From contig BLSF01000007.1 of NCBI GenBank assembly GCA_012862575.1, positions 720,077-784,076 of the forward strand: 64,000 nt of DNA, given 5' to 3'. Made by a program: the position numbers and the translations under genes. Each line of letters begins with the position of its first letter. Position 1 is the first letter of the stretch. The DNA comes from Parietichytrium sp. I65-24A (taxonomy: Eukaryota; Sar; Bigyra; Thraustochytrida; Thraustochytriidae). Under the pieces are notes generated by a model. It did no database searches, was not told the origin of the DNA, and was given only the letters and a program-made list of their open reading frames with translations. Positions 33,624-64,000 of this stretch are shown here, piece by piece.

Positions 33624-36285
33624 TTAACGAGAGCTTTTCAGAGCCGGTTTAGTGACTTTGAAGGAGTCCACCATGGATGCGAAGAAGTTCTTCGTTTCAG
33701 GCCGCCTTCGAACAGACCGGCGCGTGTCGCCAGCAGGAGCCGCACGGGTCCGCTTGGCCGGAGCTGGCTTGGCTTCGCCCCTGTCAGCACCAAGAGCGAC
33801 ATTGTCTGCGACGCCCGAGATTCCTAAAGCCCTTCGCGGAGACGTTCGAAGAGGAGCTGGGGCTGTTTGCACATCCTCATGATTAGGCTGAGTGGCATCT
33901 TCGGCCACTGAACTTCTCAACTTCCGAGTGCTTGCTGGTGTTTCGACACTTCTGCTTCGTGTTACCTTTGGTGGAGTCGTATTCTTTTCGGCCGCAGCAT
34001 TGGCAGCTTTGCTTCGTGTTGCTTTTGGGGACGTTTTAGTGCTCTCAGCCACTGTTTCGGCAGGTCTGCTTCGCAATCGTCTCGAAGGAGTTTCCTCGAG
34101 AGCGCGAACTGCTACGGGTTCTAAACTCTCGGCGCTAGCTCTGGAATTCCTCAACTTTCGTGTCGGCGTTTCTACTGCGTGGGACTTTTCTGCAAGCCCT
34201 GTGTCCCCAGTTTCATTTGCTTTCGAGCCTCGGAGTTGTCTGGTGCTTGCTGAAGTTCCCCCGACACTTGTCCCTCTCGTGGATCGCCTTGGGGTGCCAG
34301 CGGGGAGATTTTCATTCGCCTTTTCGAGATCGCCTAAAACGTCGTTTGCCAGCAGTGGTGTGCGAGAAGGAGTTTCAGTCCTGGCACTGCTTCTCGTCAC
34401 TCTTGCCGGTGACTCAGTAACGCTACTAGCATTGTTTCGTGTCGAATGCCCTGCTGGTGACGGACTTGCTTCGTTTTGAGTTTCGCCGACATTTTCACTG
34501 TCGTCTTCAGACATGCTGTTCTTCGCAGGAGACACCTGTTCGACTGTTGTGCGCCGTCGAGATCTACGAGGCGAAAGTAGACTCGAATCGACTCTACCTT
34601 CGGCGCGAAGACGTGCGATTGCCCTTGGAAGTAGTGGTGGAGTCGGCTCCGCTGCATGCTCCCCTTGTTGAGTTGCGGGCGCCGGAGATGCCGATTCTTG
34701 ACCATCCTCTTCACTGCTCACATGGCTTTCAACTTGTGCGATGGCATCAGTACGATGTGGCTCTTCAGTCTTTTCATCGGACTTCTTTGCGCCTCGCTTT
34801 GCGCGTGGTGCCTTCTGAGCGACGGCTTTCGAATCCTTACTGGTTCCTTTCTTCTTTGTCACGGGCTTTTTCTTCTCATCCTCGCTCTGAGAAGGCTCGG
34901 ACGCAGCTTTCGTTCCTCGTCGAGCTACCTTAGACTCAACAACTTCAGTTGTGGCCTCCATGGGAGGAACATCGAGGAGAGACTCCCGCCCACTATGTCC
35001 GCCCTTCTGAGAAGACGCTGATTCTTGAGATGGTGTAGATATCCTCCCCTGGATAGCCTTGTTTGACGACATCACCTTGGTCAGCTCCCCTACGTCAAGG
35101 CTCGGCTTGCGCTTGCTTTCCTTCCTCCACTCATGATGGAATGCTTCGATCACTCTGTCCGTCGTTAGCTTCACTGCTGCGTTGATTTCATCGCTATTAG
35201 CACCTTTATTCGATTCGGCGATCGTGGGCAGTTTGTTCACCAAATCATGTATGAGGCCTTCAAACTTGTTGAGCGTCAAGCCTATGTTCTCCTCTGACTG
35301 GGTCTTTGAGCCAGCAAACTCGCTACTTAGTTTGTCAAACAGTCGATTGGATTCGTTCAACCGCTCGTTTAAAAGATCGATCTCTCTTTCCCGGTTGACA
35401 ACGGTTTCCCCCAAAGTTTGGTTCCTTTTACCCAAGTCTGCGCATTCCTGTTCCATACTTCCCAAGCGGGCACAGGTTTCCGCAAGCTTCTCATTCGTAT
35501 CAAGGAGTTCCTTTGTCAGTCCATCCTTGTCATTTTCCAAGCGCGAAATTTGCTCTGTCATAATCCTGTTGTCAAGCGTTGCCTGATCGCGTTCATCACA
35601 GATTCTGCGAAGTACCTGAGCACCCTCGCTCAGGCGGTTCACGTACTCCTCCCCCTTTTCAAGTAGGCTATTCCGTTGCTCTGTGCAGGCCGCAAGTGCC
35701 GATTCGAGCTCGCCACACTTGAATTCTGCCAGGTTGAGGTCTTTCTTGGTTTGGTTGAGCTGATATCCCAACTGCAGACGCTCCACCTTGAGGGTTCGTA
35801 TCTGGTTCTGCGCCTGCAACAGCTCGTCTTGGTGCGTGAGAGCTGCGACCTTTGCGTTGGAGAAGTCGAGTCTTCTGCTCATCGATTGCGCGTGAAGCAG
35901 CTCCAGGCTCTCCTTCTTCTGTGCATTGTACAGCTCTGCCCGATCCGTCAAAGCCCCGATGCAAGCCTTCTGGTACTCGTGGGAATCTTTCGCCTTCTCG
36001 ATCTCCTGCTGATAGGCCTCAATCTGCTGAACGGCGCATTCTAGCTCGGACGTTAGCTCGCTCCTCTTCAGTTCTCCCTCGTGCACTTTCGCCTGCAAGA
36101 ACACACGCACACCCAAAATACCGTCAGCCGACATTTCCAACCTCAGTCACAACCTCAATTTCAGCCGTTTTTTTTTGAAAACAATTGACACTTACGAGCG
36201 CCTCCTCATACCGTCTACCAAGCTCAGGGTCGGCCAGCAGCTCTGCTCGTCTCAGCTTCTCTTTAAGCTTGGCAACTTCCGCCAT
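33624..36285 (-). CDS. Coiled-coil protein with basic TPxRxLRxSR repeat tail, 2 exons
   Basis: Exons 36285-36196 (30 codons) and 36092-33624 give about 852 residues. The first exon starts at the ATG at 36285 (MAEVAKLKEKLRRAEL) and is joined because its donor (GTAAGT) and the downstream acceptor (TTGCAG) keep phase 0 and continue the helix. Residues about 1-330 form a long coiled coil rich in E, Q, L and K. The C-terminal half (about 390-850) is disordered and basic, with repeated short motifs such as ETPTRKLRNSRA, ETPSRRLRSRPA, TSPKATRSKA and TPPKVTRSRS about 20-30 residues apart. Ser/Thr-Pro sites next to Arg/Lys clusters resemble CDK-site-rich DNA- or microtubule-binding tails. No named family was recognised. 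A chromatin or cytoskeletal scaffold is a guess. Confidence 0.75.
36093..36195 (-). other. Intron of the coiled-coil gene (103 bp, phase 0)
   Basis: It begins GTAAGTGTC after the 30th codon and ends GTGTTCTTGCAG. The frame runs open through the 3' part of the intron to an internal ATG at 36140, which gives a misleading alternative start. Confidence 0.8.
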
Positions 36286-47712: not shown

Positions 47713-50700
47713 CTAGGTAGAATCGAGTTTGGAGGCATAGGAAGTGCAGAAATCCGCGAAAGACACCTGCCCCAGTCCCGTGGAGTCTCTTTCACGAATC
47801 CATTTGAACAGCTCCCTGTCTGGCACATGGGATCTGCCAAGCTCATTAAAGGCCGTCCGCAGCTCCACGAAGCGAATCCCGTCCATGTCTCGGCCGCCGC
47901 CGTAACGCAAGAAGGTCTTCCATAAGCCGCTCACCTTCGTCCCTATGGCTTCGCGAACCGCAGGCGAAATGGTTTCAACGGCGTCTTCGAGCGAGATTAG
48001 CTCTGAACGCCGCTCTCGCTTTGGCACCCCCATTCTCGCGAATGCCGCCAGAGGATCGTTCTTGTGAACTGATGGGGTATACTCGTCGCTTACAGTCTCG
48101 CTCCGTGCTGCCTTCTTCAACTTTCCATCTCTAGCAGCGCTGTCGCCGTTTTTAAGGTGTTCGACCAAGTCCTTGCACTGCTCAAAGTCAAGGTCGGCCC
48201 CCGATTCTTTATGCGAAGACAACCCAAGCTCCACAAGAGCGTTCGAAACGGATTCAGCGTCAAAGGCTTTCGATGAGAGAACTTCCGATACGAATCCCGC
48301 AATGCGGGAAACGCCGTGGATCAGAAACCCACCATTACTGTAAGCCTGGAATGCAGACTTCATTCGACTGCTTTGTGATGCACCCCTGCCTTTCCTCAAA
48401 GCAGCCGTCTCTGACCTCGATTTAGTGCCATTCGAGCGAACATTTTCATCCGCAGACTTTGACAGCCTGGCCTCCTTCTCGTTTCTAGACATCCACTCGC
48501 CGTGCACCTTTTCAAACTCTTGAAATGTAAGCCCGTGAGCGTATCGTAGCCCGAGGCTACGAACTATCATCTTTACCTCATCAAGCAGCACAGTTCTTGA
48601 GCCGGCAAGAGCGCTTAAAGCGACCTGCAGCTCCTCGATCTGCAATCGCCCGTCCGTGTCACGGTCATATTTTTCAAAAATTCTAGACAGCAGTGACGCC
48701 TCCGCTCGGCTTTGGTGTTGCTCTGAAGCGTCCTTTTGCGCCAAGGCTGGAGCAATCATAGTGTTAAAAAAGCTGCAAAATTGATAAAAGTCGAGCTCCT
48801 TGTAATCAGCGCAAAACTCTTTGACAGCTTTGCGTGAGCCTTCCACCCCAACCTCTTTCAGGAGCAGTACTAGTTCGGCGAGATTAATGGTTTCCCTTCT
48901 GCCACCCTTTTTGGAGAATCGATTAAAATACTCTCGCGCGAGAACAATGTTCTCCCCTAGCAAGTCAATCACTTCGCCGGCATCCTCCGCATTGCTCTCC
49001 AAAATGCGGCTCTCCATTTTCGAAGATTTGTCAAGGTTGAGTCTACTCGGGCGAATGACACCCCGACCGGAAGCGCCAAAGACGGATCGAGATTCGCGGG
49101 ACTTCCCCATTGGCTCACTATAGTTGCTGGGCGATGAGCCTGCAGTTCGGCGCTTGCCGAATCCTGCCCGCTCCCTTTGGTCTTCGTGTTCCTCGGAGTA
49201 CGCCTTTACGGAAATTAAATTCGCCCCACCCACTCGCCGAGCTCTAACTTGTGCCTCCCACTCGTCCCATAAGTGCCCCAATACCGCATTTTCCTTCTCA
49301 ACAGAAGATCCAGAGGCTAAAACTGTGGGCAAATCAGCATCTCTCTCAAGTTCAGTTGCAAGAGGTGACCCTGCGAACCCGGCTAGAAGTTGAATCAACC
49401 ACTTCGTCATCTTCACTTCCCGCAACCGCTTTGTTTTCCAGATCCTTTCCCTTTGCAAAGCAATGAGACCGGAAGATTTAACGATACCGACTAGTTCCGA
49501 CACAATGAGAGCGTTCCACTCCTGATACCGCAATACATCCCGAACCATATAGATCGCGTCCTCGCGCAATAAGTACGCCTGACGATACGGGCTCAAATTT
49601 GCGCTCAGCACGTGCCGCACCTTGTTCTCGTCGAAAAAGGTGTCATCCATCAAAAGATCTCTCACGATAAAATGAACCAAGCCGCATTTGATCGCACTCC
49701 GCTGAACTTCCTCTCGTCCCATACTCATCATTGAGGCCCAAACTTGCCGGGCTGTCTCACTGCGACCGGGCCAAGCGTTCAAAATTTCAACAGCACGTGC
49801 GACATCTGGACGACTTATGGCCGAGTTAAGGACTCCTTTATTTGTTCGGAGATAAGCTGCAAATCGTTCCGAGAATGCAGGTCCCACATGGGGAAATAGA
49901 GCCGAGTACAGACTTTCTTCTTTCAGACAAACCGAACCTAAAAAGCTGCACAGGGAGGCTTGCTGCTGAAGTATTTCACGAGTCAAGCAAGAGAGCTCAA
50001 ATGTCTCATCACCCACTATGTCAGAGTAAGCCCCTATCATCCCAGTATCTGTTATCAGTCTAATCAAAGTGAAGCCAGGCTTGGATGCTTCTCCGACTGC
50101 ACGATGATTTCGCAATGTGTCAGTCCCAAGAGTGCACAACTCGGTGAGTACAGCACGCTTTTCTGGGGAGAGACTTTCGGACAATTTAGCGCTCTCCCAT
50201 ACCCGAGGAAGCCATTTGGACCAAACCTCCTCCAACAAAGTAATTGTTTGGCCGAAAGAGTCGGCCTGTATGCCTGGCTCTTCAGAGCCACCGTCCCCAA
50301 ACATACGTGAAAAGTGCTCTCGTGTACAGACCATCTTGATGCGTGGCAGCACCTTACGAATGTCTCGAACGGTGTTTGCGAAACGAGCCTCTTCAGCAAG
50401 CTCTTCTAGCCCTGCAATTGTGCTGAGCGCGGCCAAGTCGGGAAATACCATGTCTTGCTCGGCCTCCAGAGCGTCAGGCAGTCCACTACATGCAAGCAAG
50501 ATTTCAAGCATCCAAACAGATCCATGCAAAACAATCTTTTCAAGAATCTGCGCAGCTTGTTTGTTCTGTTTTCGAATCAACATCTTTGCAAGAGTTGGCA
50601 GCACATCGCAAGATGGCCACGCCATGACGAACTCCGGCCCTGCGCTAACTTGAGCATCAAGAAGGGAAAACGCGGAGTCTCTTACTTGTTGGTCTGGATG

Positions 50701-53700
50701 GTGCAGGTGCTGCACAATAGCGACAGTGCAACTTGGGCACGAAAACTCCTCGCAAAGCTCTCGGACAGAATCTTTCGAGACCGGAACGATAGAGTAATCT
50801 GCGACAGTCCGAAACATTGTTTCAACAGCTGCAAATGCACTCAGAGTAATTTCCGCGTCAGGATCCCCGAGCAAGTGCTTGATTTTGGGAACCAAGCGAA
50901 GATCAATGCACACCTGCAATCTCTCCATCGACGACGGCACAAGCATATCAAGCATCTGACGAGCTGCGACAAGGCGGCCCCTAGAGCCCCTCTTGGCGCT
51001 GAATAATTGAGTCAGAGCCGACCCCACCGGAACAACATGGCCAAAATATTGCATAGGCCGGTAAAACCTTGGCTTCACAAGCTCGCCCCCGGGTGTGGAC
51101 ATATTATACTTGAAACCGTTAGATATATACCTTCGAACAACCTCCGCGTTTGTGGACCCCAGACCATCGTCACCTAGGAGATCTCGTATCACAGGGGAGA
51201 TCAGTTTTTCTTCACTTGGGAACCAAAGTTCTCGCCCATTCCCATAATACAATTTCAAGCACGCTTCTGTCAGCTCAGGGACGAAAGGCTCCAGCGAGCA
51301 GCCGGGCTTGGCAAGATCTGCGATCATCAACTTGAATCCATGTGCCAACCGCTTCAAAAGTCGCAAACCCATGTGCTCTTCCTGGTTCGGAGCACCACTC
51401 GAACCTTGCGCCCTTTGTGAGGCGGAAAACTGCAAGCAAATGTCAACAATGTCCAGGAGCCCTGATGCTCTTACTAAGACCTGGCACTCAGAGATCCAGC
51501 CCGCGTCAACGGCTTCCCTCGTTCCCGAGGATACAGGGGCAGGCGCAGTACATATACGAACGATCTCTTCAATCACATCCAACAGCAAGCGGGCATCTAT
51601 TCTATTGGCCAGAGCCTGCACCTTGAGAATCTCAATTTGCTCTATTGCGCCAAAGCTATCTCCATGCAGGGCAGTTTTCGCTGAAACGCCGGAAAGAATT
51701 AACTGTGACGCAATCTCCTCCGCTACCAGAATATCTCGCTCGGACAAGCAAAAGTAAGGAAGCTTCATCAAGTCGCTGATTAGAGGCCGAGCTTCGCTAT
51801 CGCAACTTAGACACTGGAGGATAACGTCTAGTACCTCCTTGCACCAGTGGGAATTTACATCATCGCCTTCAAGTGTTGATCCGAACGAAGATGTTGCGAG
51901 TGAGTCCACCAGAAGACTCAAATCAGCGGTTTCTCTGCCCACACCGCCCATCTGCACTGGAGCGACGATTTGTAGCTCCCCTCTTGGTCCTACTGACAAC
52001 TTTGTCTTAGAGCATTCAGCATGCGAAGTCATTGTCCGAAGGGAAGCAAAGATTCTCTCAGCACCTGTGCAACTACTTCTTTCATGAAGGATACCCCCCA
52101 CTGACTCAAGAAGAAACTCTCCAAAGCACCAGGAGTCATACTCTTGAGTGAGAGAGTCGCAGTCCGGGGGATCGTACAAAAGCTCGCTCGGCCCACAGAC
52201 TTCAGATAGATCTGCACCACTGACCAGCCTTCCGCTCGTGTCTCCATCGATACCTACCAGTCCGGCAGTTACTAAGCTTGCCAGTCGCACGTATCGCCCG
52301 CAGGGAGAAATCAACACTTGGCGAGGCCTTGGTCCACGCAAAATTATACCGTGGTTGTGCAGTGCTTCTAACTGCTGCAGGAGCTGAGCTCCCCAAAACC
52401 TTAACAGCTTTATTCGAGCCGGGGCACCCAGATAGCCGTACCGATCAAACGCGTCGCGAGCTGTGATCCAACCTTCCTGTGTATAGAAGACAATATGACG
52501 GCCATCTCTCTTTGCATCAGAGACGCTGGTCGCGTGCTTGGCATTTTCCACCAAATAGAAACCAATTGCATGCTCGTGTTGCAGCAGTCTGTACATGGAT
52601 AGCTCTCGCTCCACATGGCCTTCATATATCCCGCCTGAGGTCAATTGTTGACGATCAAGTTTGTTGTCGCTAATGACATGAATGCATAGAGGAATGGGCT
52701 GATCGCTTGCGGAAGGGTGCCAGCCTCTACCGTGATACACCAGCCGCCCAGGAGAACTTTGGGACTTGTCCAGTGCAAACTCGTGGATGCGGTACGAGAG
52801 CGGGTTTACATGCCCAACGAGTCGATCGTAGGTGCCTTTGAATTCGGAACCCGGTACCTCGCTAAACACAAAGCTTTGTTGGTGTACAAAGCCCGACGTG
52901 CTTGTTTTCTCTTCATCCGTTTGGATTTGCATGTTTGCCGAGAGAAATTCAGAAGCATGTTTCTGGAGCAGTGATCCTAGCTTTGCAAGTGCCTGATTAG
53001 TCAATATTACCTTTTCCTGCATCATGACGGCTTCGGCAGCTAACACGAAGCGCTCAAAACCCGATATGTTTGCCATCTCTTGCTCTGTCTTCAAGGTTAA
53101 TGAAGTCGGGGCTCTAGCAATCCTACTCAGGTTCTCGCTTACAAGGCGCAGAGGATCAAGAGCGTCAACAATTCTCAGGAAAACCTTCTCTGGGATTTGA
53201 CCGGTCCATAAGCTGGAAGGGCCTTCGCCGTTTTCAAGGACCAGGTCAGAGCATAACTTTTGTATAGCTTCTACGCTTGCGAGCCCTCGGTGAAGGAAGT
53301 GTGTCCTCCTCAAGACTTCGTATAGATGCTCGACAGAGCAAGATTGAGCATGGAATCTTGTGCAGGCTTCAAGCAGCTGATCCATTCTAATGCTCACCAT
53401 CGCACCCCCGCCACTCAAAAGATTCCTAAATTCGCTCAAATCAGCTCCAAGACCAAGCTGGAGCGCGAATGTTGTAACGTGATCTCCAGTCAGTAGCTCA
53501 TGCTTGACTTCTTTGATTAGGTCGTCCACACTGGCATGTTGCCCGATTGCAACCCTATCATGCAGAGCCGCAAAGCTTGCAAGCATGTCAAAGTATCGGT
53601 CACCCCAATTCATTGGGAGGCATCGCATCGCTTGATAGGCATCAACTAGGCTTTTCTCGGTGTCAAACCCACTTTGTGGAGAGTGGTCCAGGGTTGCACA

Positions 53701-56700
53701 TCGCAATAGACTTCCGATCGAGTCTACAGCGTTTGCTTCACCCTCGTCGACATCGTGCGCAATTTTTCGAGCGGTTTCGCAAGACACTCGAAGGTCAATC
53801 GTAGCAATTGCGAGCTGGTGCCGATTTGCCTTTTCCAGCTTTTGAAGTATTTGCTGTGGCAACGGGCTGTCAAAGTGAAGAGCTGGAACGAATACATTGC
53901 AGCGCGATATTGAGTAGGCATGGATTTGAAGCCTTCTGGAACTATTTGATGCAACAACCCAGAGCATTTCTAGCCCATCCTGGCCAGTCCGCGACGCCCT
54001 CCCTCTCTTTCGATAAAGTTCCAACGGTGAATGGTACGGTGAAGCACTCTCCATCTCCAGCTCAGGGACCGAGCTTGAAGCAGGAATAGCATCGCTCAGC
54101 AACTTGACTCTGTCTCCTGGCTTAAGGCCTTTCTCTCCCGCGCCGGAACCGTGAATGAGGCTTCTCAATCTTGACCCCGGTACCTTAAGCAGCAGCTCGC
54201 TCTCGTCGAAAGCCACTTCGAACAAGTTTTCTTTGTGATATTTTCTCGTCACGATTCCTATCTCATCAGACAGGGCCTTTCTCTGTGTCGCTCTGTGATG
54301 ACTTGGTTTACCAAGGATCTGCAGAGGGCCATCGCCTTCACAGAAGAATGGAAAAACTTCAACAGACGGCCTCGCAAGCGCTCTTTGCATGGAATCGAAA
54401 TCCATTTCGCCTATGTTGCGCGAGTTGAATAGTCTCTGGACCTCGTCGACATCTCCAACCTCCGTGGTCACGAAGAAGACGACGCGAGAAACGAGCTCGC
54501 AGAGCTGAAAAACTCGACGAATATTATCGGAAGAAGATTTCCACCCTGCGGTATGAAACATTGGCCCAAGATGTTCAAAAAACGCCGCATCCCGAAGCCG
54601 GAGGAATTCGTCTTCAAACTCGTCGCTGGCAACACATATGGTGAATCCGTTCTCGAGCACATACGCGAAGCCCGACACAATTAAATTCCGGTCACGCGAC
54701 GCGTGTCGCGACAGTGATGCAATCGCAGACTGCATCATGGCTTCGTCAACCTCAATACCTGTTCCCCAAGCCTGCTGCTGGGAAGCAAAATAAGGAACCT
54801 CTAGACCAACCAGGGTGCTGTTGGTCCTCAGGCGATGTACTTGACAGTACTGCTCCTCAGAATTCGTCCACTCGGAGACAGAGCCGGTGTAATGCCTTGA
54901 AAACATCGGGTGTGTGAGTCGATGAGGTCGGGAAATTGGGTCAATAAGGTAAACATTGCCCGCACCGGTTGCGATTGCAATCAAGGCGGCGTGCCGCAAA
55001 AATCTAATTGCTATTGCGTCCCCGGAGTCCCCCGAATAAAGTTTCAGAGACATAGCTTTCCTGCAAGCGAGCGGCCGGACTCTTGTCCTCCCATGAACAA
55101 ACTCGTCCGACTGCAATCCACGGGAAAGCTCTCGCTTCGAAACAAGCTGATCACCGTTAAAATCCAGCTCTCTGAAGAAGCGCTCCAGGTCGGTAGCGTC
55201 GATTGGCAATGCCAATTTGTGAAGAATGAACCCTTTAAACTCCTCCAAAGACACGTTTCCGTCACCGTTAGTGTCGAGGGCCTCGAACAGACCTCTGACA
55301 TCTACATACTCCTCTGGAATCTGAATACTGATTACCTGCCCTGTCGCAGGTTTCCCTAGCTCTTCAAGGTCTAAAGGAACCCGTGCCCAAGCCTCTCCTG
55401 TTTCAACTACGCTTACATCAGCAATTTGTCCACCTTTGTATAGATGCGTAATCCTCACAGCTACCTTTCTCGCCGCATGCACGTGAACAAGTGACCCCGG
55501 AACCATCGAAAGCACCCCTGAGTCACCGTCAGGCACGCTCAAACGGGTCATTTTGACACCTTGCTCAACTCCCCCCAAATCGTCCAGATACCGAATGGTG
55601 ACACTGTCGCTTGTAGGCTTGCTCACAATCTTTGCCAATCGGTACGCTTGAGACATCGTTGACTTGACGCAGAGTAGTTTGTATATCTGCTGCCGAATAG
55701 CGCCCAAAGAACCCTCGATTCCTACGCCGTTCATTCCTCTTTGTCGCCAAATGAGCTGATCGGAGAGGTCATAAAATTGGATTTTACCTTCACGCCCTGC
55801 AACAACGACAAACTCCGCGCCGGAAATATATGTCAGAGCAGCTCGATTGAAATCAACTTGTTTTTCTGTTCCGGAAAAACTTGCGACAGTGTTTCCATGT
55901 CGACCACACAACAGTTGAACACATGGCGCGCCATTTCGAACGCCGCACAAGAATGCGTCCCATCTTGCCAAGTAGAATGTTGAATAAACAGAGCACGTCT
56001 CTTGACCATTGACCGGAATTGGTTTTAACCTGGTTTCCCGAAGTTTGAAGTAGGTTAACCCATCATAGAAAGTCACGCTGTTGTTCAGTGGAGACGTATC
56101 CAGCAGGACCATGCCTTTCCCGTGGATAACGGACAATATTTGACCAATATCCTGACCATCGAGAAGTTTGGATCTTGCCACGCTTCCCTTTTCAAGGAGC
56201 TGAACGGAACAAATTACGTGAGTCAGATCTGATTGCCATGCTTGCAGCTCTCCGCCTGTAGTTAGCACGAGCACCCGCCGCTGATCAGCATCAAAGCAAA
56301 TTTCATAGATATCGGACCCATCGCTGTTTCCCATCTTCTGTTCTCTTGCGCTGGAAATATTCCAGAATACCCCACGCTGAGAACTTTTAGGCATCGTTGT
56401 GCAACCCACAAGATCTGCCCAGTGGATGACATCATGCCTGGGCCTATTAAAAAGCTCGTTAAGACCATCGCCAAAAGTCGAATCTGACCGCATCCGTACG
56501 TCGAGAGCAGAGAGAGTCTGAGCGTCCTGGTAGATTGCTTTCATAAGAGAAGATTTTGACACCCCTTCGACATGCTGACCGTCAGCCTCCTGCAACCTGT
56601 TCTGCCGAACATGGTTGAAAACATTTCGTAAAATGGCTCTCAAAGATTCCAGAACCCCAATTTCGCCCCCCACACGGGTGCCGCCCCCTCTCGGGGCTGG

Positions 56701-59700
56701 CCTGTGGCGTGCAAGCATCGCTCGAAGGTGGCAAAACTCCTCAAACCCAAAAGGCTTGCGAAAAACTGATTGGTCCAGATTCTCCTGCTCTGCCTCTTCA
56801 TAGTATCCGTCCAAGTACTCGCACGCCATTTTCCAGCTAGCTGAGTTCATCCGACCGTTCTTCTCGCTCTGGTGAACACTGAAGGCAACGTGAAGACTTC
56901 GTATATCATCATCAGTCAGCGAGCTGGCCCATGGGCGTGCGCGCCAAGAGGAAATGCTTTCCCACCACTGCGCAGATTTGCGATCTTGGTTAGCTTTTCG
57001 CACTCCCTGCACAAAAAAGCCCAAAAATTCCTCCCAGGAAAACGATTCTCTCGGATCCAGCAATATTGCTTCCAGTGTTGGACAGAGCTTTGTGATGCTT
57101 CGATTCGCGCTTGAAGACATCAAAACTGTCTGTGATTTGAGAAGCGCAGCAAGTCGAGGGTCCGACTTTCCCGCTGCAACAAAGTCATCTTTGGTGACCT
57201 TCCCGTCACCTTTGACATCAATGACCTCGAAGAGTTCTCTCAACTCCCTAAAGTCAAGGCCCTCCTCCGCCAGTGCAATAGTGTTGCCTTTAGTCACTAC
57301 GTATGCTCGACAAGATTTTGCATCAAAAGCAACGAGGTTTTTCGGATTGGAGACCCTTCTTTTTGCATCGACACTGAGTGGCGTCGAGGACAGAGCTGCG
57401 TTCATAACCTCAGCTTCAAGAAATACAGGTTTCGGAAGTGGCCGCATCTCAAATTTTCGCTGAAGTTCTCTTCCCAACAATCCCTCTTCCCCAAGTTGCA
57501 CTGCGGATGACACAATATCCGATATGATTTCGGATCGGATGAAATTGACTGCTTCTCGCTTACGAAACTGAGCGCGCTCAAGCTTGCTGGACTCAACTAC
57601 GACGACAGACTCCCCTCCGTCATGGCCGTGGACAAGGGCAGAGTCAAGAACTATGCCCGAATCTTGCAACCCAACCACAAATCGCGTCTCGCTGTTTAGT
57701 TGCCCAAGCTCGCCAATTCGAACAGAATCCCCATACGCAAAACCGCTTAGGCTGGACACTACGATCGTATTGTCTCCTGGGACGCAAGATGTAGCAAGAT
57801 CCGAAGTAACAACCTTGCCGGCACTAGTTCCGCCGGTTGCACTTCGAGCGTACGGCGCGCCACCGTTTCCAGACCCGCGCTTGAGCAACTGCTTTCCATG
57901 CGTCCCGACCAACTTCAATGCAGCCTGAGGGTCAACGTCAGGGACGTTGAGAATTTGCTTTGGAGGCGCGGCATTTACCCGATCTAGCTTCTCCTTCAGA
58001 ACCTGAACTTGAGCCTCGAGCTCTTTGACTTTGAGGTCCTCGATTCTCCGCGTAGAGAGGTTGTCATTGGGTGCCGAGGTCCCGGCATTCTTCAAGTGGT
58101 CCTTTTGCCCTGCATCTTGGCTCGTTGTTTCGCGGGCTTTGGAGCTTCGACCCGCTCTGCTCAGATCGTTAGCCAGCTTATCATCTTTCGATCGTTTTCG
58201 CAATCGTGGTAATCCGCTTTGACATTCCACCAACCTTGCCTTTATGAAACGCAAATTACAGCTTTCAGGAAGCACAAGTTCCCCATCCTCCGTCTCATGA
58301 AACCCAGCGGCAACAAAGAGCTCAATACCCCCACTTAACCTCCCGACGCGACGACGAAAATTGTCATTTTGCAAACTAATATGCCGATAGCGAACACTTT
58401 TCGGCTCCTTTGTTATATTTTCCAGGTATCGCACAAATGTCTCGACGCCTGTGAGCCAAGAGCTCGAAGCGTTTAATTTGGTGCAGTACGTGTTGCCTAG
58501 TTCTCCGATTGCTGCGCCGACTGCGGCAGCATCAGGCAGTTCCAGGAAATGCAAGGTTTGGCGCCGAAGCTTCAGTTCTCGAAAAGCGTCACGAACGTGT
58601 TTGAAGCGTCTTTTCGAATCAATCTCAAGCATATAGCCAGAGCTGCTCTCGCTGTACGCCCAGCCAATGCTTGACATGAGCTCGACGACCCCTTTAAAGT
58701 TCCCGAGCAACTTCCGCGGTCCTTCGGCAAGCTTACTACGTATTGGTTTCCCTTCCTCCAGATTTGCAACGTACTTGCCACTAAGCAATGCTTCCGTGCA
58801 AGATAATGCTGTGTCACAGATGGACTGGACTAATGTCGGGCCATTGAAAAGCTTCAGCAGCCCAAACGCTTTTGTAAGCGGTGATACTGATTGAGACTCG
58901 TCAACAATCGCTTTTGCATCAGCTGCCGGACCTGAAGTGGTTTGAGGGACAGCTCGGATTTGATCAATCCGAGCTTCCACTTTTGGAACTGTATGCGCAT
59001 ACGAGGCAACAAATTCTGGGAGCGAAACAATACCGTCCTGGTCGATGTCATGATCTTTAATCCATTGTGCAATTGCGGCATCGCTATGGTCGCGCCCCTT
59101 CTCCCGGAATGCTACGGCGAGGTCTGCGGCTGTCAACCACCCATCACCATCCTTGTCCAGCTCACGAAATGTAGTCTCGAGTAACTTTATTTGTAGAGTT
59201 TCGGCAGCAGTTCCTTTTTGCATCAACGCCTGAACTTCTAATTCTGCGTCTCTCTGCTTGGCTTTGTGTCTTTTCAAGAGCGTTTGAGCGTCCGCATAGG
59301 AAGGCTTTCCTTCACCCTTAGGTTTGCCTCTCTGGTCCGCAATCTTCGACTCGCTCACAGCAGCAATCGCACTGGCCTTGCCTGTGATGATGGAAACTTC
59401 TAGTGCTCGAAGAGCGGCCTCTAGATCAGCTTTTCGTCGCCACAAAAAGGACTCAGCTTCCCTCGTAAGCTCAGGGAACTTAAAAGTTGCTTCCGTTTCA
59501 ACAGCCTGAACTGTGCTCTGCAATACAAAGACATTCGCGGCTTTGTCAAGCTGAAATCCAATAGATCCCATCAAAGATTGGCCGTACTTCCACTTTCCAA
59601 TCTTTTTGAGATATGCGGAGTTTGATGCTCGAACTCGCCAAAGCCTGCTGTCTTTTGGGTTGGTCAGAATGTTACTCACCATTGAAAGCGCTGTTTCCAC

Positions 59701-62700
59701 AGCCACTCGAAGTTCGACTAGTGTGCACTCAGACTGAAGCAGTCTGACCGCTTCGCCAATGCTCAAAAATCCGCTGTCAAGGACGCGGAGCTCCTGCTCA
59801 ACTTCTTCTCGCCTAACGTTGAGAGTCACCAGAGTCTCCTTTGATAGACCTTGTACCATTGACCGGCCGAATTTGTCTAAGGTGCCTTTTAAGCTAAGAA
59901 TTTGAACCGAATTGCGCAACTCCTCGGGTTTTCCAAGCCCAAGTGCTTTTTCCCGTTGCGGAACTACGCTTTGGCCGCGCCGCGGCTCAAAGCCAACGGC
60001 GTGCATAAGCTCAATACCGCCTCTGTGTCGGCCAATATTGCTCTGGAATAATTCCTCTTTGACCCGAATCTGCCATAGGGACGAGTCATCGGGGCGTGAT
60101 ATCGCACTATTCAGATATCGCAGCACGCTCTCTCCAACGATACGAGCGTCCTTGGCGTCAACATGTAGTCGAAGCATTGCAAATGCTGCTGGAACAGTCG
60201 GAGCTGAAGAAATGGTTTCGAAGACAAATCCAAATGCCGCGAGGATCTCAGGAAGGCTAGCTCTACTGTGCATTTTTCCAAACTCTTCAATTGTGGACAT
60301 CAAATGTTGCGTGGATCTTCCGGCTGCCCGCAAAATCTGTTCGACACTGGCGGTCTCCACTTCGCCTGTTTCCGCGTGATCCAATGTCTCAAACTCCCGA
60401 ATTGCGAGTTTAAGGGCGTCAATTTGCTCCACGTCCCTGCCGATGGCGAGTTTTCGAAGGAGCAACTCGTTCTCTTTCCGAGTGCCTTTCCACTCTCCGG
60501 AGCGAAAGACTTGAGCTGCGACGACGGCAATCGTTTCGGAGTCCCCTCGGCTTGAAAGCACGCCGAGCGTTGCCGACGGTGCCTTTCCAGCAATCCCTTT
60601 GCCCCATAGCTTATCGTAATATGACCCGACGCGGCCAAATTCGTCGCGCTCTGGGTCTGCAAACATATACGAGAATGCATGCGCAAATTCTCCGAGAGTA
60701 ACTGCATCAGTCTTTTTCAGTCCCATTACTCGCATGTACTCGCCGACTTGATTAACTGAAGGCTCTTTCCCAGTTGCTCCAAGAGCCACTCGAATGTACT
60801 TTGCTGGGAGAATTTGCCGGCCACGACGTGTTTTAATGCAATAATCAAAGTACGCATCCTCTATCGCGTTCAGGTTTTCTGCGCCCAAGTTAACCGCCCA
60901 ACCCTCTTTCCTCCAAAGTGCATTAGGACCAGAGTCATCAGGGCCATCATCGCTCTCCAAGGAAGAATCAGAAAAGTCAGACGAGTCGGAGGAGGAACCT
61001 CTTCTCCCCCTCCTCCTCGATCGCCCCACTTTGCTTGACCGCCGAGATCCGTTCCTTGTTCCATCGTCATCACTTGAGTCTGAAACGGAAACTCCTGCGT
61101 ACGCTTGCACAAACTCTACAAAGTCAACCTTGCCGTCTTCGTTGGAATCAAGCTCTCGGACCCACCTATCGATGGTCTGCCTGTCAAAGCGCTTCCCCAT
61201 GTCTCGAAAGACGGATGCAACCTCGCGATGGGTGATGAAACCATCTCCATTCCGGTCATATTTTTTGAAATTGGCTCTGATTTTGCGGTATTGGGTTGCT
61301 CCAAGAGCTTTCTTGACGCGCAATTTCAGATCTTCTTCGGCCATCAATTCTCTCAATGACGGGGGGCGATAGTCGTCCTCTGCCTCTTTTCTAGCAACTG
61401 TTCTAAGCTTCGACCAAATTGCGTCATCGCCCTTGCGCGAGTTGCGATCTCCGTCGCTCCCGGAGGTCATCTTACGGACTTTGTCCAATGGTTTGAATTC
61501 CTCGTGGTCTCCGTCGTCATAGTCAACGTCCACTCGCCCATCCTGATGGATACGTGTCACGCGCCCGGGGTACCATGTCGATCCATTGGCAAAGAGACCC
61601 TCTACTCGATCCCCTACCCTCAGATCCGCTTCCGAGCGTCTTCTGCTTCGCGCCCCCCTGGAGGAAGCTTGACGAGGAGACGTGGATCTTCTAGGAGATC
61701 TAGACCTAGATCTTGATCTGGATTTTCTTTGTGCAGTTCGCGAAGACCCACGGCCCCTGGAGTCGGAGTCGTCTTTACCGACATCTAAGCCGAGTTTGGA
61801 GCAAAGCCCTTTAAAATCTTCGAATGCCAATTTATCATTCGGGCCGATGCCTTTCGCTTTGCAAAATAGATAAATTTCTTTTCGATGCGACGACTCAACT
61901 TCGAGATTGAAGAGCTTGAGCAAGACCTGCGAAACGTTCGTCGGCTTGACATCACCTTCTTGCTCGAATTTGCTCCTCAAGCCGCCTCCGGATCCGTCAA
62001 GGTCACTGCTACTGCCGCCGTCTGCAGGAAATATGGCGTCTGGAGGAACTGCAAGATCTCGATCACCGTCATCAAATGCAACTGCAAAAGTCCCATCCCT
62101 GTTTACTGCAGATACTTCCCCCGGATAGAGCTCGGTGGAGCCCTCAAATCTCGCTTGGACACGACTTCCTCGTTTGTAGGTTGGGCCTGACCCCCGTGGA
62201 CTGCGTGAGCGAGTACGCCTGGTACTTGCAGTATTTCGAGCGTAACTGCCACCTTCCGGCTTCATTAAGGAAGCCGGAACCCTGCTTTCGAAGTCTCCAT
62301 CATCGTAGTTGATATCATACGTGTCGTCCATATGGACCTTGGACACCTTGCCTTTAAACCAATTTGACCCTCCTCCGAATTTGGCCTCCACGGGGTCGCC
62401 CCGCCTGTACTTTGCAACTGATTCTTCTGCCGCGCTGCTCTCCCCATCCATCAACCTTATCAATGCAGCTTTGACTCTTCGCTCTTTGTCACCGTCATCG
62501 TAGTCTATGGCATAGGTTCCATCTGTATTTACTTTCACAATTCGGCCAGTAAACCAAGTCTCCCCTCCCTTGAATAGAGCTTCGACTTTATTGCCCACTC
62601 TAAAAGTTGAGCCTTTTGGTCGTACTGATTTCTTGTTTCCCGTTGCAAGGACCTTGATATCTCTCCGGTCGACCCGTTCTTCAAAGTCTCCGTCGTCGTA

Positions 62701-64000
62701 CTGAATATCGAACTTGTTTCCCCTGTGAGCTTTGTCAATGCGACCTGTGTAAAAGGTGCCTGTCTGCTTGTAGTTTGCTTCAACTGCAGTACCTTCGCGA
62801 AGCTCTTCCGCATCAACCTCGCTATCGCTTGTTGCAGCGGATTTTCCACCTGAGGCGACACCGAGGAGCTCGCAAAGATCTTCGAAGTCCTCAAGCTCAA
62901 GGGCTTCTGAACTCCGGATCCGCCTTGAGCGGGCAAAATCGCGAATTTTGTCCCTCTCCGCGGAAGTGACTGCTTTACCGGATATTCGGCGAAGCAAGAG
63001 GGGGACAGAGCTTAAGGTGACACGATTCCCAGCGCCTTCGAATACCTCTCGCACCTTACTATTAGCGGAATCATGTCGACCCTTCGAAACTGGTGAGCGT
63101 CGGTTCCCAGCACTAAGACTTCGGATTAGCTCCGGATCAACAGCGCGCTCCTTGTCTCCATCTTCGTAGTCAATAGCAAAGGTACCGTCCCCATTCTCCC
63201 GAACAATGGTGCCTTTGAACCATGTGTTCCCTCCTTGAAAGCGTGCTTCTACGGAATCTCCTCGACGAAATCCTTTGACTACTCCCCTCGTCTCTGGACC
63301 TTTTGCCCCGCCTATCCCAAGTTCCTCGCAAAGAGCTTCAAAGTCTTCGAATTCAAATGCGTCGCGGACGCCTATATTTCGAGATTTGGCAAAGTTCATG
63401 ATTTTTCTTCGATCCGTTGATGCTACAGGGCTGCCAGAAACTTGCTGCAGTAGGTCAGAAACATTGCTCACTGTGACCCTTGATTCTTTATCAAATATTG
63501 CTTGTAAATTGCTTCCCGGCTCTGAACGTTTTCGAGATCCTTTCGATCTAGTTCCCCCTTTTGTTCGAATGAGTTCCTTTGGAACATACTGCTCTTTGTC
63601 TCCGTCATCGTAGTCGATGTCAAAGGTTCCGTCTCTGTGCTTTCTGACAATTCGCCCAGAGAACCACTTAGGGCCGCCGTTGAACTTGGCTTCAACCTCA
63701 TCGTCAACATTGAATTCTTCAATAGCTTCGTCACTCTCAGTGTCGTTGCCATCATTTACAGCAATGCCAAGATCACCACAGAGGTCCTCAAATTGGCTAA
63801 TTGTGAAAGTATCACGAATCCCAATTCGATTTGCTTTACAAAAGTCCATGATTTGCTTGCGCTGAGACGACACGATTGGCTTTCCAGACACGCTGCGAAG
63901 CACGTTCGAAACATTGCTCATCGTAACCTTTGTCTCGGATTCGAAAGCTTGTTGGACTTTGCTCTTCGACCTACCATCGCGGTTTTGGCTTTTGCCTCCA
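47713..64000 (-). CDS. Giant multidomain EF-hand/Tudor/PUB/pseudokinase protein, 5' end outside window
   Basis: One uninterrupted frame of more than 5,420 codons. It stays open to the window edge, and the repeat homology continues upstream of the first Met in view (63921), so the true start lies beyond. Residues below count from that Met. Order: 1-820 helical plus Tudor/Agenet-like repeats; 880-935 EF-hand pair; 1245-1320 and 1395-1470 PUB-like; 1580-1645 EF-hand pair; 1690-1760 and 1815-1885 PUB-like; 1935-1980 coiled coil; about 2244 EF-hand; 2528-3025 propeller-like with an EF-hand pair at 2878-2935; 3720-3945 kinase-like, lacking HRD and DFG; 4200-4840 helical repeats; 4975-5140 and 5325-5395 EF-hands. 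PUB domains bind p97/VCP-type tails and EF-hands bind Ca2+. A Ca2+-regulated scaffold is inferred. No family name is known to me. Confidence 0.85.
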   Translation of the reverse strand, partial: GGKSQNRDGRSKSKVQQAFESETKVTMSNVSNVLRSVSGKPIVSSQRKQIMDFCKANRIGIRDTFTISQFEDLCGDLGIAVNDGNDTESDEAIEEFNVDDEVEAKFNGGPKWFSGRIVRKHRDGTFDIDYDDGDKEQYVPKELIRTKGGTRSKGSRKRSEPGSNLQAIFDKESRVTVSNVSDLLQQVSGSPVASTDRRKIMNFAKSRNIGVRDAFEFEDFEALCEELGIGGAKGPETRGVVKGFRRGDSVEARFQGGNTWFKGTIVRENGDGTFAIDYEDGDKERAVDPELIRSLSAGNRRSPVSKGRHDSANSKVREVFEGAGNRVTLSSVPLLLRRISGKAVTSAERDKIRDFARSRRIRSSEALELEDFEDLCELLGVASGGKSAATSDSEVDAEELREGTAVEANYKQTGTFYTGRIDKAHRGNKFDIQYDDGDFEERVDRRDIKVLATGNKKSVRPKGSTFRVGNKVEALFKGGETWFTGRIVKVNTDGTYAIDYDDGDKERRVKAALIRLMDGESSAAEESVAKYRRGDPVEAKFGGGSNWFKGKVSKVHMDDTYDINYDDGDFESRVPASLMKPEGGSYARNTASTRRTRSRSPRGSGPTYKRGSRVQARFEGSTELYPGEVSAVNRDGTFAVAFDDGDRDLAVPPDAIFPADGGSSSDLDGSGGGLRSKFEQEGDVKPTNVSQVLLKLFNLEVESSHRKEIYLFCKAKGIGPNDKLAFEDFKGLCSKLGLDVGKDDSDSRGRGSSRTAQRKSRSRSRSRSPRRSTSPRQASSRGARSRRRSEADLRVGDRVEGLFANGSTWYPGRVTRIHQDGRVDVDYDDGDHEEFKPLDKVRKMTSGSDGDRNSRKGDDAIWSKLRTVARKEAEDDYRPPSLRELMAEEDLKLRVKKALGATQYRKIRANFKKYDRNGDGFITHREVASVFRDMGKRFDRQTIDRWVRELDSNEDGKVDFVEFVQAYAGVSVSDSSDDDGTRNGSRRSSKVGRSRRRGRRGSSSDSSDFSDSSLESDDGPDDSGPNALWRKEGWAVNLGAENLNAIEDAYFDYCIKTRRGRQILPAKYIRVALGATGKEPSVNQVGEYMRVMGLKKTDAVTLGEFAHAFSYMFADPERDEFGRVGSYYDKLWGKGIAGKAPSATLGVLSSRGDSETIAVVAAQVFRSGEWKGTRKENELLLRKLAIGRDVEQIDALKLAIREFETLDHAETGEVETASVEQILRAAGRSTQHLMSTIEEFGKMHSRASLPEILAAFGFVFETISSAPTVPAAFAMLRLHVDAKDARIVGESVLRYLNSAISRPDDSSLWQIRVKEELFQSNIGRHRGGIELMHAVGFEPRRGQSVVPQREKALGLGKPEELRNSVQILSLKGTLDKFGRSMVQGLSKETLVTLNVRREEVEQELRVLDSGFLSIGEAVRLLQSECTLVELRVAVETALSMVSNILTNPKDSRLWRVRASNSAYLKKIGKWKYGQSLMGSIGFQLDKAANVFVLQSTVQAVETEATFKFPELTREAESFLWRRKADLEAALRALEVSIITGKASAIAAVSESKIADQRGKPKGEGKPSYADAQTLLKRHKAKQRDAELEVQALMQKGTAAETLQIKLLETTFRELDKDGDGWLTAADLAVAFREKGRDHSDAAIAQWIKDHDIDQDGIVSLPEFVASYAHTVPKVEARIDQIRAVPQTTSGPAADAKAIVDESQSVSPLTKAFGLLKLFNGPTLVQSICDTALSCTEALLSGKYVANLEEGKPIRSKLAEGPRKLLGNFKGVVELMSSIGWAYSESSSGYMLEIDSKRRFKHVRDAFRELKLRRQTLHFLELPDAAAVGAAIGELGNTYCTKLNASSSWLTGVETFVRYLENITKEPKSVRYRHISLQNDNFRRRVGRLSGGIELFVAAGFHETEDGELVLPESCNLRFIKARLVECQSGLPRLRKRSKDDKLANDLSRAGRSSKARETTSQDAGQKDHLKNAGTSAPNDNLSTRRIEDLKVKELEAQVQVLKEKLDRVNAAPPKQILNVPDVDPQAALKLVGTHGKQLLKRGSGNGGAPYARSATGGTSAGKVVTSDLATSCVPGDNTIVVSSLSGFAYGDSVRIGELGQLNSETRFVVGLQDSGIVLDSALVHGHDGGESVVVVESSKLERAQFRKREAVNFIRSEIISDIVSSAVQLGEEGLLGRELQRKFEMRPLPKPVFLEAEVMNAALSSTPLSVDAKRRVSNPKNLVAFDAKSCRAYVVTKGNTIALAEEGLDFRELRELFEVIDVKGDGKVTKDDFVAAGKSDPRLAALLKSQTVLMSSSANRSITKLCPTLEAILLDPRESFSWEEFLGFFVQGVRKANQDRKSAQWWESISSWRARPWASSLTDDDIRSLHVAFSVHQSEKNGRMNSASWKMACEYLDGYYEEAEQENLDQSVFRKPFGFEEFCHLRAMLARHRPAPRGGGTRVGGEIGVLESLRAILRNVFNHVRQNRLQEADGQHVEGVSKSSLMKAIYQDAQTLSALDVRMRSDSTFGDGLNELFNRPRHDVIHWADLVGCTTMPKSSQRGVFWNISSAREQKMGNSDGSDIYEICFDADQRRVLVLTTGGELQAWQSDLTHVICSVQLLEKGSVARSKLLDGQDIGQILSVIHGKGMVLLDTSPLNNSVTFYDGLTYFKLRETRLKPIPVNGQETCSVYSTFYLARWDAFLCGVRNGAPCVQLLCGRHGNTVASFSGTEKQVDFNRAALTYISGAEFVVVAGREGKIQFYDLSDQLIWRQRGMNGVGIEGSLGAIRQQIYKLLCVKSTMSQAYRLAKIVSKPTSDSVTIRYLDDLGGVEQGVKMTRLSVPDGDSGVLSMVPGSLVHVHAARKVAVRITHLYKGGQIADVSVVETGEAWARVPLDLEELGKPATGQVISIQIPEEYVDVRGLFEALDTNGDGNVSLEEFKGFILHKLALPIDATDLERFFRELDFNGDQLVSKRELSRGLQSDEFVHGRTRVRPLACRKAMSLKLYSGDSGDAIAIRFLRHAALIAIATGAGNVYLIDPISRPHRLTHPMFSRHYTGSVSEWTNSEEQYCQVHRLRTNSTLVGLEVPYFASQQQAWGTGIEVDEAMMQSAIASLSRHASRDRNLIVSGFAYVLENGFTICVASDEFEDEFLRLRDAAFFEHLGPMFHTAGWKSSSDNIRRVFQLCELVSRVVFFVTTEVGDVDEVQRLFNSRNIGEMDFDSMQRALARPSVEVFPFFCEGDGPLQILGKPSHHRATQRKALSDEIGIVTRKYHKENLFEVAFDESELLLKVPGSRLRSLIHGSGAGEKGLKPGDRVKLLSDAIPASSSVPELEMESASPYHSPLELYRKRGRASRTGQDGLEMLWVVASNSSRRLQIHAYSISRCNVFVPALHFDSPLPQQILQKLEKANRHQLAIATIDLRVSCETARKIAHDVDEGEANAVDSIGSLLRCATLDHSPQSGFDTEKSLVDAYQAMRCLPMNWGDRYFDMLASFAALHDRVAIGQHASVDDLIKEVKHELLTGDHVTTFALQLGLGADLSEFRNLLSGGGAMVSIRMDQLLEACTRFHAQSCSVEHLYEVLRRTHFLHRGLASVEAIQKLCSDLVLENGEGPSSLWTGQIPEKVFLRIVDALDPLRLVSENLSRIARAPTSLTLKTEQEMANISGFERFVLAAEAVMMQEKVILTNQALAKLGSLLQKHASEFLSANMQIQTDEEKTSTSGFVHQQSFVFSEVPGSEFKGTYDRLVGHVNPLSYRIHEFALDKSQSSPGRLVYHGRGWHPSASDQPIPLCIHVISDNKLDRQQLTSGGIYEGHVERELSMYRLLQHEHAIGFYLVENAKHATSVSDAKRDGRHIVFYTQEGWITARDAFDRYGYLGAPARIKLLRFWGAQLLQQLEALHNHGIILRGPRPRQVLISPCGRYVRLASLVTAGLVGIDGDTSGRLVSGADLSEVCGPSELLYDPPDCDSLTQEYDSWCFGEFLLESVGGILHERSSCTGAERIFASLRTMTSHAECSKTKLSVGPRGELQIVAPVQMGGVGRETADLSLLVDSLATSSFGSTLEGDDVNSHWCKEVLDVILQCLSCDSEARPLISDLMKLPYFCLSERDILVAEEIASQLILSGVSAKTALHGDSFGAIEQIEILKVQALANRIDARLLLDVIEEIVRICTAPAPVSSGTREAVDAGWISECQVLVRASGLLDIVDICLQFSASQRAQGSSGAPNQEEHMGLRLLKRLAHGFKLMIADLAKPGCSLEPFVPELTEACLKLYYGNGRELWFPSEEKLISPVIRDLLGDDGLGSTNAEVVRRYISNGFKYNMSTPGGELVKPRFYRPMQYFGHVVPVGSALTQLFSAKRGSRGRLVAARQMLDMLVPSSMERLQVCIDLRLVPKIKHLLGDPDAEITLSAFAAVETMFRTVADYSIVPVSKDSVRELCEEFSCPSCTVAIVQHLHHPDQQVRDSAFSLLDAQVSAGPEFVMAWPSCDVLPTLAKMLIRKQNKQAAQILEKIVLHGSVWMLEILLACSGLPDALEAEQDMVFPDLAALSTIAGLEELAEEARFANTVRDIRKVLPRIKMVCTREHFSRMFGDGGSEEPGIQADSFGQTITLLEEVWSKWLPRVWESAKLSESLSPEKRAVLTELCTLGTDTLRNHRAVGEASKPGFTLIRLITDTGMIGAYSDIVGDETFELSCLTREILQQQASLCSFLGSVCLKEESLYSALFPHVGPAFSERFAAYLRTNKGVLNSAISRPDVARAVEILNAWPGRSETARQVWASMMSMGREEVQRSAIKCGLVHFIVRDLLMDDTFFDENKVRHVLSANLSPYRQAYLLREDAIYMVRDVLRYQEWNALIVSELVGIVKSSGLIALQRERIWKTKRLREVKMTKWLIQLLAGFAGSPLATELERDADLPTVLASGSSVEKENAVLGHLWDEWEAQVRARRVGGANLISVKAYSEEHEDQRERAGFGKRRTAGSSPSNYSEPMGKSRESRSVFGASGRGVIRPSRLNLDKSSKMESRILESNAEDAGEVIDLLGENIVLAREYFNRFSKKGGRRETINLAELVLLLKEVGVEGSRKAVKEFCADYKELDFYQFCSFFNTMIAPALAQKDASEQHQSRAEASLLSRIFEKYDRDTDGRLQIEELQVALSALAGSRTVLLDEVKMIVRSLGLRYAHGLTFQEFEKVHGEWMSRNEKEARLSKSADENVRSNGTKSRSETAALRKGRGASQSSRMKSAFQAYSNGGFLIHGVSRIAGFVSEVLSSKAFDAESVSNALVELGLSSHKESGADLDFEQCKDLVEHLKNGDSAARDGKLKKAARSETVSDEYTPSVHKNDPLAAFARMGVPKRERRSELISLEDAVETISPAVREAIGTKVSGLWKTFLRYGGGRDMDGIRFVELRTAFNELGRSHVPDRELFKWIRERDSTGLGQVSFADFCTSYASKLDST
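52080..52760 (-). other. Pseudokinase-like segment in the giant protein
   Basis: It resembles a kinase C-lobe: LLRFWGAQLLQQLEALHNHG precedes ILRGPRPRQVLIS where HRDLKPxN would be, then YVRLASL where DFG would be, and YDSWCFGEFLLES as the DxWxxG helix. The catalytic Asp of HRD and the DFG Asp are absent. The fold call is by eye and could be wrong. Confidence 0.55.
58260..60190 (-). other. Four PUB-like domains with an EF-hand pair between them
   Basis: The units lie at about 60190-59950, 59745-59515, 58850-58640 and 58480-58260. Three carry the PUB pattern of a helix (VLRYLNSAIS, VETFVRYLENIT), then a Lys/Arg turn, a second helix and GGIEL-hxxxGF before a final strand. The EF-hand pair (DKDGDGWLT and DIDQDGIVS loops) lies at about 59190-58985. 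The third unit is the most divergent. Confidence 0.7.
61475..64000 (-). repeat. Tandem helical + Tudor/Agenet-like modules in the giant protein
   Basis: Seven copies of a Tudor-like unit with the pattern VEAxFxGGxxWFxGxI, then DGTFxIDYDDGDKExxV, and at least four copies of a helical unit with SNVSxLLxxxSG, xxRxxIxxF and FExLCxxLG. The first helical copy begins before the window edge. In the middle, Tudor-like units follow each other without the helical partner. Confidence 0.85.

Follow-up and report, generated by a model that had tools for sequence, protein, structure and literature searches.

Several described systems come close to parts of the locus reported here. The p97 cofactors UBXD1/UBXN6 and PNGase share the PUB domain, whose PIM pocket in UBXD1 consists of YxxN(x)9Y with K/RxxN (PMC6995525), and a second paper shows that a change of HOIP Asn102 abolishes OTULIN binding (PMC4017264). 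According to PMC10565251, the Fused kinase CdaH carries an armadillo domain at its C-terminus, Stk36 has a related HEAT domain, and Ulk4 is a pseudokinase. For calpains of unicellular eukaryotes, a PUB domain and EF-hand modules are listed separately (PMC3563603).

The window analyzed here, a stretch of 64,000 nucleotides from Parietichytrium sp. I65-24A, contains an open frame that shares parts with these systems. Like UBXD1/UBXN6 and PNGase, the encoded protein carries the PUB domain, and its fourth copy (PUB4) shares YxxN(x)9Y with UBXD1; it is nevertheless far larger, has four PUB domains, two of them with most of the pocket lost, and shows no UBX domain and, as its only enzyme family, a weak kinase match in its Pfam scan, which was run as four overlapping slices. 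The arrangement of a kinase-like domain followed by ARM/HEAT-type repeats is shared with ULK4/Fused (STK36), and ULK4, too, is described as a pseudokinase, but the giant protein adds Tudor, PUB, EF-hand, and propeller-type parts. The Pfam scan listed no calpain domain. We read the locus as one gene for a giant (>5,400 amino acids), catalytically dead scaffold that senses Ca2+ and perhaps docks CDC48, a function that we infer from its parts, and we give this reading a probability of roughly one half. No description of the Tudor/PUB/EF-hand/pseudokinase combination was found in the open-access literature (most subscription papers lie outside this scope), in agreement with a preliminary description of the DNA, which knew of no family that joins PUB domains, EF-hands, Tudor-like arrays, and a dead kinase.

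A giant open frame at a contig end

On the minus strand, a single frame of 5,428 amino acids runs from window position 63999 to the stop at 47713 with zero internal stops (Table 1). GC content follows the order GC1 > GC3 > GC2 in 12 of 13 blocks of 400 codons (residues 1-5200), the exception being block 401-800, where GC2 lies above GC3 by 0.01, and each of the other five frames contains 4 to 34 stops per 400-codon block. Both observations indicate that the giant frame is coding sequence and not a product of chance, so that the earlier claim of more than 16 kb open in one frame is borne out. With respect to the proposed single-exon gene, the unbroken frame agrees with it, but the gene runs off the end of its contig. 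The last base of contig C7 (784,076 bp) is window base 64000, so that the 5' end of the frame is cut off; hence, translation probably does not begin at the listed ATG at 63921.

The true gene start probably sits on a second contig, at C66:1-483(-), a link made by sequence between two unjoined contigs. A 161-codon frame opens C66; its Met closely follows an upstream stop, and it carries the same helical-plus-Tudor module as the gene on C7. This frame has 61 listed matches in the genome, and its first 38 residues are reached by C66 itself and four stretches of the giant gene only, with the remaining listed matches starting at its residue 39 or later; this confinement of the first 38 residues to the giant gene makes C7 and C66 probable neighbors. 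We found no second copy of the giant gene in its genome, where matches elsewhere are short and partial (one for the kinase slice, four for the PUB core, and two for the propeller slice).

Table 1. Features of the giant open frame, in order along the protein (positions are those of the window)
Feature	Residues	Window positions	Strand	Basis or remark
Giant open frame	1-5428 + stop	47713..63999	(-)	5' end beyond contig
Tudor/Agenet array, about 7 copies	97-842	61474..63711	(-)	Pfam Tudor_5 8.6e-34, Agenet 2.4e-28
RS/SR-dipeptide-rich linker	about 731-810	61570..61809	(-)	Dipeptide count
EF-hand pair 1	906-967	61099..61284	(-)	Pfam EF-hand_7 1.1e-16; two Ca2+-pattern loops (915, 951)
PUB1	1293-1353	59941..60123	(-)	28.2 bits, below 34.3 cut-off; PIM-pocket residues 2/5
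PUB2	1430-1494	59518..59712	(-)	37.2 bits, over cut-off; pocket 3/5
EF-hand pair 2	1607-1667	58999..59181	(-)	Pfam; two pattern-fitting loops
PUB3	about 1720-1795	58615..58842	(-)	Collinearity with P0003 (four PUB stretches); pocket 1/5
PUB4	1850-1916	58252..58452	(-)	57.4 bits, over cut-off; pocket 4/5
Probable coiled coil	1985-2007	57979..58047	(-)	By eye; near start of P0002 homology
Conserved stretch, beta-rich by eye	2075-2140	57580..57777	(-)	No Pfam match
EF-hand 3	2252-2276	57172..57246	(-)	Pfam
WD40/propeller-type region	2543-3385	53845..56373	(-)	WD40 repeat in P0003; summed profile score
EF-hand pair 4, inside propeller-type region	2901-2958	55126..55299	(-)	Pfam, loop pattern
Pseudokinase slice	3735-4135	51595..52797	(-)	Pfam match below cut-off, CDKL3 profile, motif loss
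ARM-type helical repeats	about 4120-4900	49300..51642	(-)	AlphaFold and Foldseek
EF-hand pair 5	5106-5164	48508..48684	(-)	Pfam EF-hand_7 1e-9; one pattern-fitting loop
C-terminal EF-hand-like pair 6	5370-5424	47728..47892	(-)	Weak Pfam E 0.17; aligns with P0002/P0003 EF-hand loops

Two distant relatives

The protein search returned two relatives among 5,251 candidates scored. P0002, a 3,617-amino-acid open frame from an MMETSP transcriptome that is labeled complete, aligns by BLASTP with residues 1979-5424 of the giant protein (31%), and P0003, a 4,864-amino-acid frame in an ENA record, derived from an 18,948-base contig, aligns with residues 807-3570 (24%), 3746-3946 (27%), and 4025-4924 (21%). 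Tudor, PUB, EF-hand, WD40, kinase-like, ARM-type, and C-terminal EF-hand parts follow in P0003 in the same order as in the giant protein; P0003 differs in showing a single Tudor match where the giant protein has an array and in having an EF-hand pair within its kinase-like part. A second search with P0003 region 130-2500 scored 1,260 candidates and recovered nothing but P0003, and a search with the kinase-ARM alignment found no relative among 7,993 scored. The same alignment gave 10 pattern matches and no confirmed relative in bacterial and archaeal contigs, and the propeller alignment gave 106 pattern matches and no confirmed relative in viral contigs. This looks like a real, old scaffold protein whose architecture, apparently undescribed, has been retained in part by the two distant relatives. 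Even without the CDC48 step, an arrangement of this size (more than 5,400 residues), shared in part by proteins at just about 21-32% identity, is an unexplored scaffold family.

The coiled-coil junction lies close to residue 1979, where P0002 starts, so that P0002 provides single-transcript support for the C-terminal part only. Its label as complete would fit two genes or transcripts that share one frame by chance, one for a Tudor-EF-PUB protein and one for a propeller-pseudokinase-ARM protein, which we consider very improbable given that the junction shows neither a stop nor a drop in coding bias and that P0003 reads across it without a break in frame, being homologous on either side.

Tudor array, EF-hands, and propeller-type region

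Tudor/Agenet, EF-hand, and PUB domains each have matches over the curated Pfam cut-offs in the giant protein, confirming that parts of these three kinds, earlier read by eye, lie in one frame. The Tudor copies partly alternate with a helical module of ~66 amino acids (module alignment), which, among the listed genome matches, recurs only in the giant gene and C66. This module may be a degenerate EF-hand pair, for which the comparison was weak (hhalign probability of 46%, best PDB match at E 0.42).

The Tudor array also has chromo-like Pfam matches to chromatin-reader families, and together with the RS-rich stretch near residues 731-810 this would suit a nuclear scaffold, whose Tudor array recognizes methylated histones or RNA-binding proteins, whose RS linker leads it to nuclear bodies, and which uses CDC48 for chromatin extraction. 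We regard this as quite improbable: the four Pfam slices contain no chromatin-type domain beyond the Tudor array, and the RS/SR count per 60 residues, at most 15 here, reaches only 4 in P0002 and 5 in P0003. Furthermore, Tudor arrays elsewhere in the genome occur with EF-hands (frame C5), with EF-hands and SAM (C1), with SAM (C16), and with the tubulin-cofactor-C domain TBCC (C34), C5 having been scanned whole and the other three in part; because of this company of TBCC, SAM, and EF-hand domains, a chromatin-only reading ranks lower. The same frames bear on how unusual the locus is. C5 and C1, like the giant gene, combine Tudor arrays with EF-hands over cut-off, so the idea that giants with both are unique does not hold, and the Tudor-EF part of the giant gene is in keeping with what this genome does elsewhere. 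The distinctive trait is the joining of Tudor-EF to PUB, propeller-type, pseudokinase, and ARM parts: in contrast to the giant gene, C5 (whole) and C16, C1, and C34 (in part) list no PUB or kinase family at E <= 1e-5. Two further open frames with Tudor-type matches, of 6,929 and 8,245 amino acids (G000:C128 and C50), show that single frames of giant size are no rarity here.

With a 12-residue loop pattern that we take to be the PROSITE-type EF-hand pattern, we count seven loops in the giant protein, where 500 shuffles of the residues gave 0.018 on average and never more than 1; canonical-type Ca2+ loops of this kind are what is expected of an EF-hand sensor. Conservation differs between the sites. 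The loops of pair 1 miss the Ca2+ pattern in P0003, pair 2 is identical to P0003 at 32 of 61 aligned positions, and the loop of EF-hand 3 has K at position 3 in the giant protein and fits the pattern in P0002 and P0003. In the specific case of pair 4, two loops match the pattern in the giant protein, P0002, and P0003 alike.

For the propeller-type region, P0003 contains one WD40 repeat over cut-off (35.4 versus 27 bits), and a profile of the three sequences matches a WD40 protein at 3.4e-19, a summed score that comes mainly from one stretch matched to its 13 repeats. The sequence evidence for the propeller-like part proposed earlier is the repeat in the relative and the summed scores, and no single repeat match of the three-sequence profile passes alone. 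From a reading of the sequence, a full propeller is likely.

PUB domains and docking to CDC48

The domain typical of p97/CDC48 cofactors is present, with Pfam PUB reaching 4.8e-32 for the slice of residues 1301-2800 and two of three giant-gene matches over cut-off in a genome-wide PUB search. PUB4 retains YxxN(x)9Y (Y181, N184, Y194) and N201, with S at the K198 position, and its closest solved relative is the PUB domain of UBXD1 (6sap, 4.4e-8). PUB2 retains the equivalents of N184, R198, and N201, and a PDB search with the PUB2 slice alone gave no match at E <= 0.1. In P0003, four of five pocket residues are kept in PUB2, and one, none, and one in the other three; the best PIM pocket therefore differs by protein, being PUB4 in the giant protein and PUB2 in P0003. 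The same organism has a PIM-bearing CDC48, encoded by a frame of 815 amino acids that lies over its family cut-off and has the tail DDDDEDLYG, with the DLYG end.

The partly retained pockets of PUB4 and PUB2, together with the DLYG tail of CDC48, make docking by one or two PUB domains plausible, in a form that is not conserved PUB by PUB. Of the earlier proposal of a Ca2+-responsive scaffold tied to p97, the pockets and the tail give limited support, and the shift of the best pocket to PUB2 in the relative speaks against.

Ten other PUB frames occur in the genome, with the N201 equivalent in all ten and that of N184 in eight, where one frame (L014) has an incomplete sequence and another (L019) has a PUB match below cut-off. 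Half of them carry ubiquitin-pathway or p97-type domains, namely PPPDE peptidase plus ubiquitin-like, thioredoxin plus ubiquitin-like, UBX, WLM, and UBA; of the remaining five, one has PEX14-like KPWE, one a sub-cut-off CW zinc finger, and three have nothing else. EF-hands at E <= 0.001 were not listed for any of the ten. Frames L008, L010, L011, and L014 are those with PPPDE plus ubiquitin-like, thioredoxin plus ubiquitin-like, UBX plus TUG, and WLM.

Kinase-like part and ARM-type repeats

Kinase Pfam scores are 21.3 bits in the giant protein, 15.3 in P0002, and 32.8 in P0003, with a cut-off of 31.7; P0003 thus clears the cut-off by 1.1 bits, and none of its stretches does so individually. 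The three-sequence profile matches CDKL3 at 5.2e-8, the best kinase in the 60 PDB matches shown, out of 915, and the slice of the giant protein alone reaches only E 0.0048 (DMPK) as its best PDB match. In the register of the CDKL3 alignment, HRD reads LRG, LRG, and LRC and DFG reads SLV, TLN, and SLS in the giant protein, P0002, and P0003, respectively; the Lys of VAIK reads H, E, and H, as placed by eye, with no tool alignment over the N-lobe. The VAIK Lys, HRD Asp, and DFG Asp of active kinases are therefore absent from all three proteins, and by alignment the kinase-like part appears to be catalytically dead.

Structure prediction gives a divided result. AlphaFold models the kinase slice alone at pLDDT 33, and all 50 listed Foldseek matches of this model are kinase entries by title (a few being complexes with no chain named), the best at E 3.7e-3 and none at E <= 0.001. 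With three sequences, residues 3700-4650 reach a mean pLDDT of 51. Values stay below 50 over 3700-4118; in the ARM part, ten-residue blocks span 39 to 90, with the highest at slice residues 621-860. Foldseek with this kinase-ARM model returns 224 matches at E <= 0.001, the best at 2.0e-5. Among the 50 of them listed, 46 are importin-alpha, beta-catenin, or designed armadillo proteins, and 4 are chains of one "Engineered Protein" entry, with TM-scores among those listed of at most 0.18 by query and 0.50 by target.

Modeling thus lends moderate support to ARM repeats, and the helical-repeat part of the preliminary description can be named as ARM type within the same chain, its armadillo fold matches lying at E <= 0.001. 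The dead kinase suggested there stands as regards the missing catalytic residues, but not as a fold, since the Pfam score is below cut-off and the model is poor; the structure check yielded armadillo matches for the kinase-ARM slice and kinase-titled ones for the kinase slice, the latter without one at E <= 0.001. Pseudokinase is therefore the best label, not a proven fold.

We do not adopt membership in ULK4/Fused: the kinase-like part precedes the ARM-type repeats, but it occupies residues 3735-4135, whereas the ULK4/Fused kinase is N-terminal. A broader likeness, in the form of a cytoskeletal or flagellar scaffold with a pseudokinase-ARM part acting as in ULK4/Fused, EF-hands that are structural or tune microtubule contacts, and PUB partners other than CDC48, seems rather unlikely to us, given the position of the kinase-like domain and the presence of PUB and Tudor parts, which we do not know from ULK4/Fused. 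In addition, the Pfam scan lists no ULK4-named family, and no ULK4 structure is found among the 60 PDB matches shown, where CDKL3 is the best kinase. The order of a kinase-like domain and then ARM-type repeats does favor such a scaffold, as do the flagellar roles given for Stk36 and Ulk4 in PMC10565251 and the occurrence of another Tudor frame with a tubulin-cofactor-C domain and two with SAM.

Proposed working of the scaffold

In our preferred reading of a Ca2+-sensing, dead scaffold, a rise in Ca2+ would be sensed by the EF-hand pairs, foremost pair 4 in the propeller-type region, and would change the shape of the scaffold, while the Tudor array and the propeller-type, pseudokinase, and ARM parts would hold client proteins. 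PUB4, and perhaps PUB2, could bind the DLYG tail at the CDC48 C-terminus, which would deliver the unfoldase to these clients, and the other PUB domains might be structural or bind something else. An extension of this reading, which we hold to be doubtful, is that of a conserved, undescribed eukaryotic family of giant scaffolds that place CDC48 under Ca2+ control, with EF-hands that sense, PUB domains that dock, and pseudokinase-ARM and Tudor parts that select clients. If true, this would define a new p97/CDC48-linked protein class, uniting calcium signaling and protein unfolding in one chain.

Neighboring frames

Near the start of C66, and hence probably close to the giant gene, lies a frame of 5,583 amino acids (L039, G000:C66:8562-22499), in which four stretches match the first part of the PfaA model, presumably its ketosynthase part, with none over the family cut-off; in all, 13 matches to this model were obtained, none of which reaches the cut-off. 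In the window, an 838-amino-acid frame at 33624-36140 (-) shows no Pfam match at E <= 0.01 and sits in strong AT skew (-0.305 at 34001-36000). An RPE65/carotenoid-oxygenase frame at 6579-7853 (+) covers profile positions 3-284 of 469 only, so the rest of that gene may sit past an intron or a frame change.
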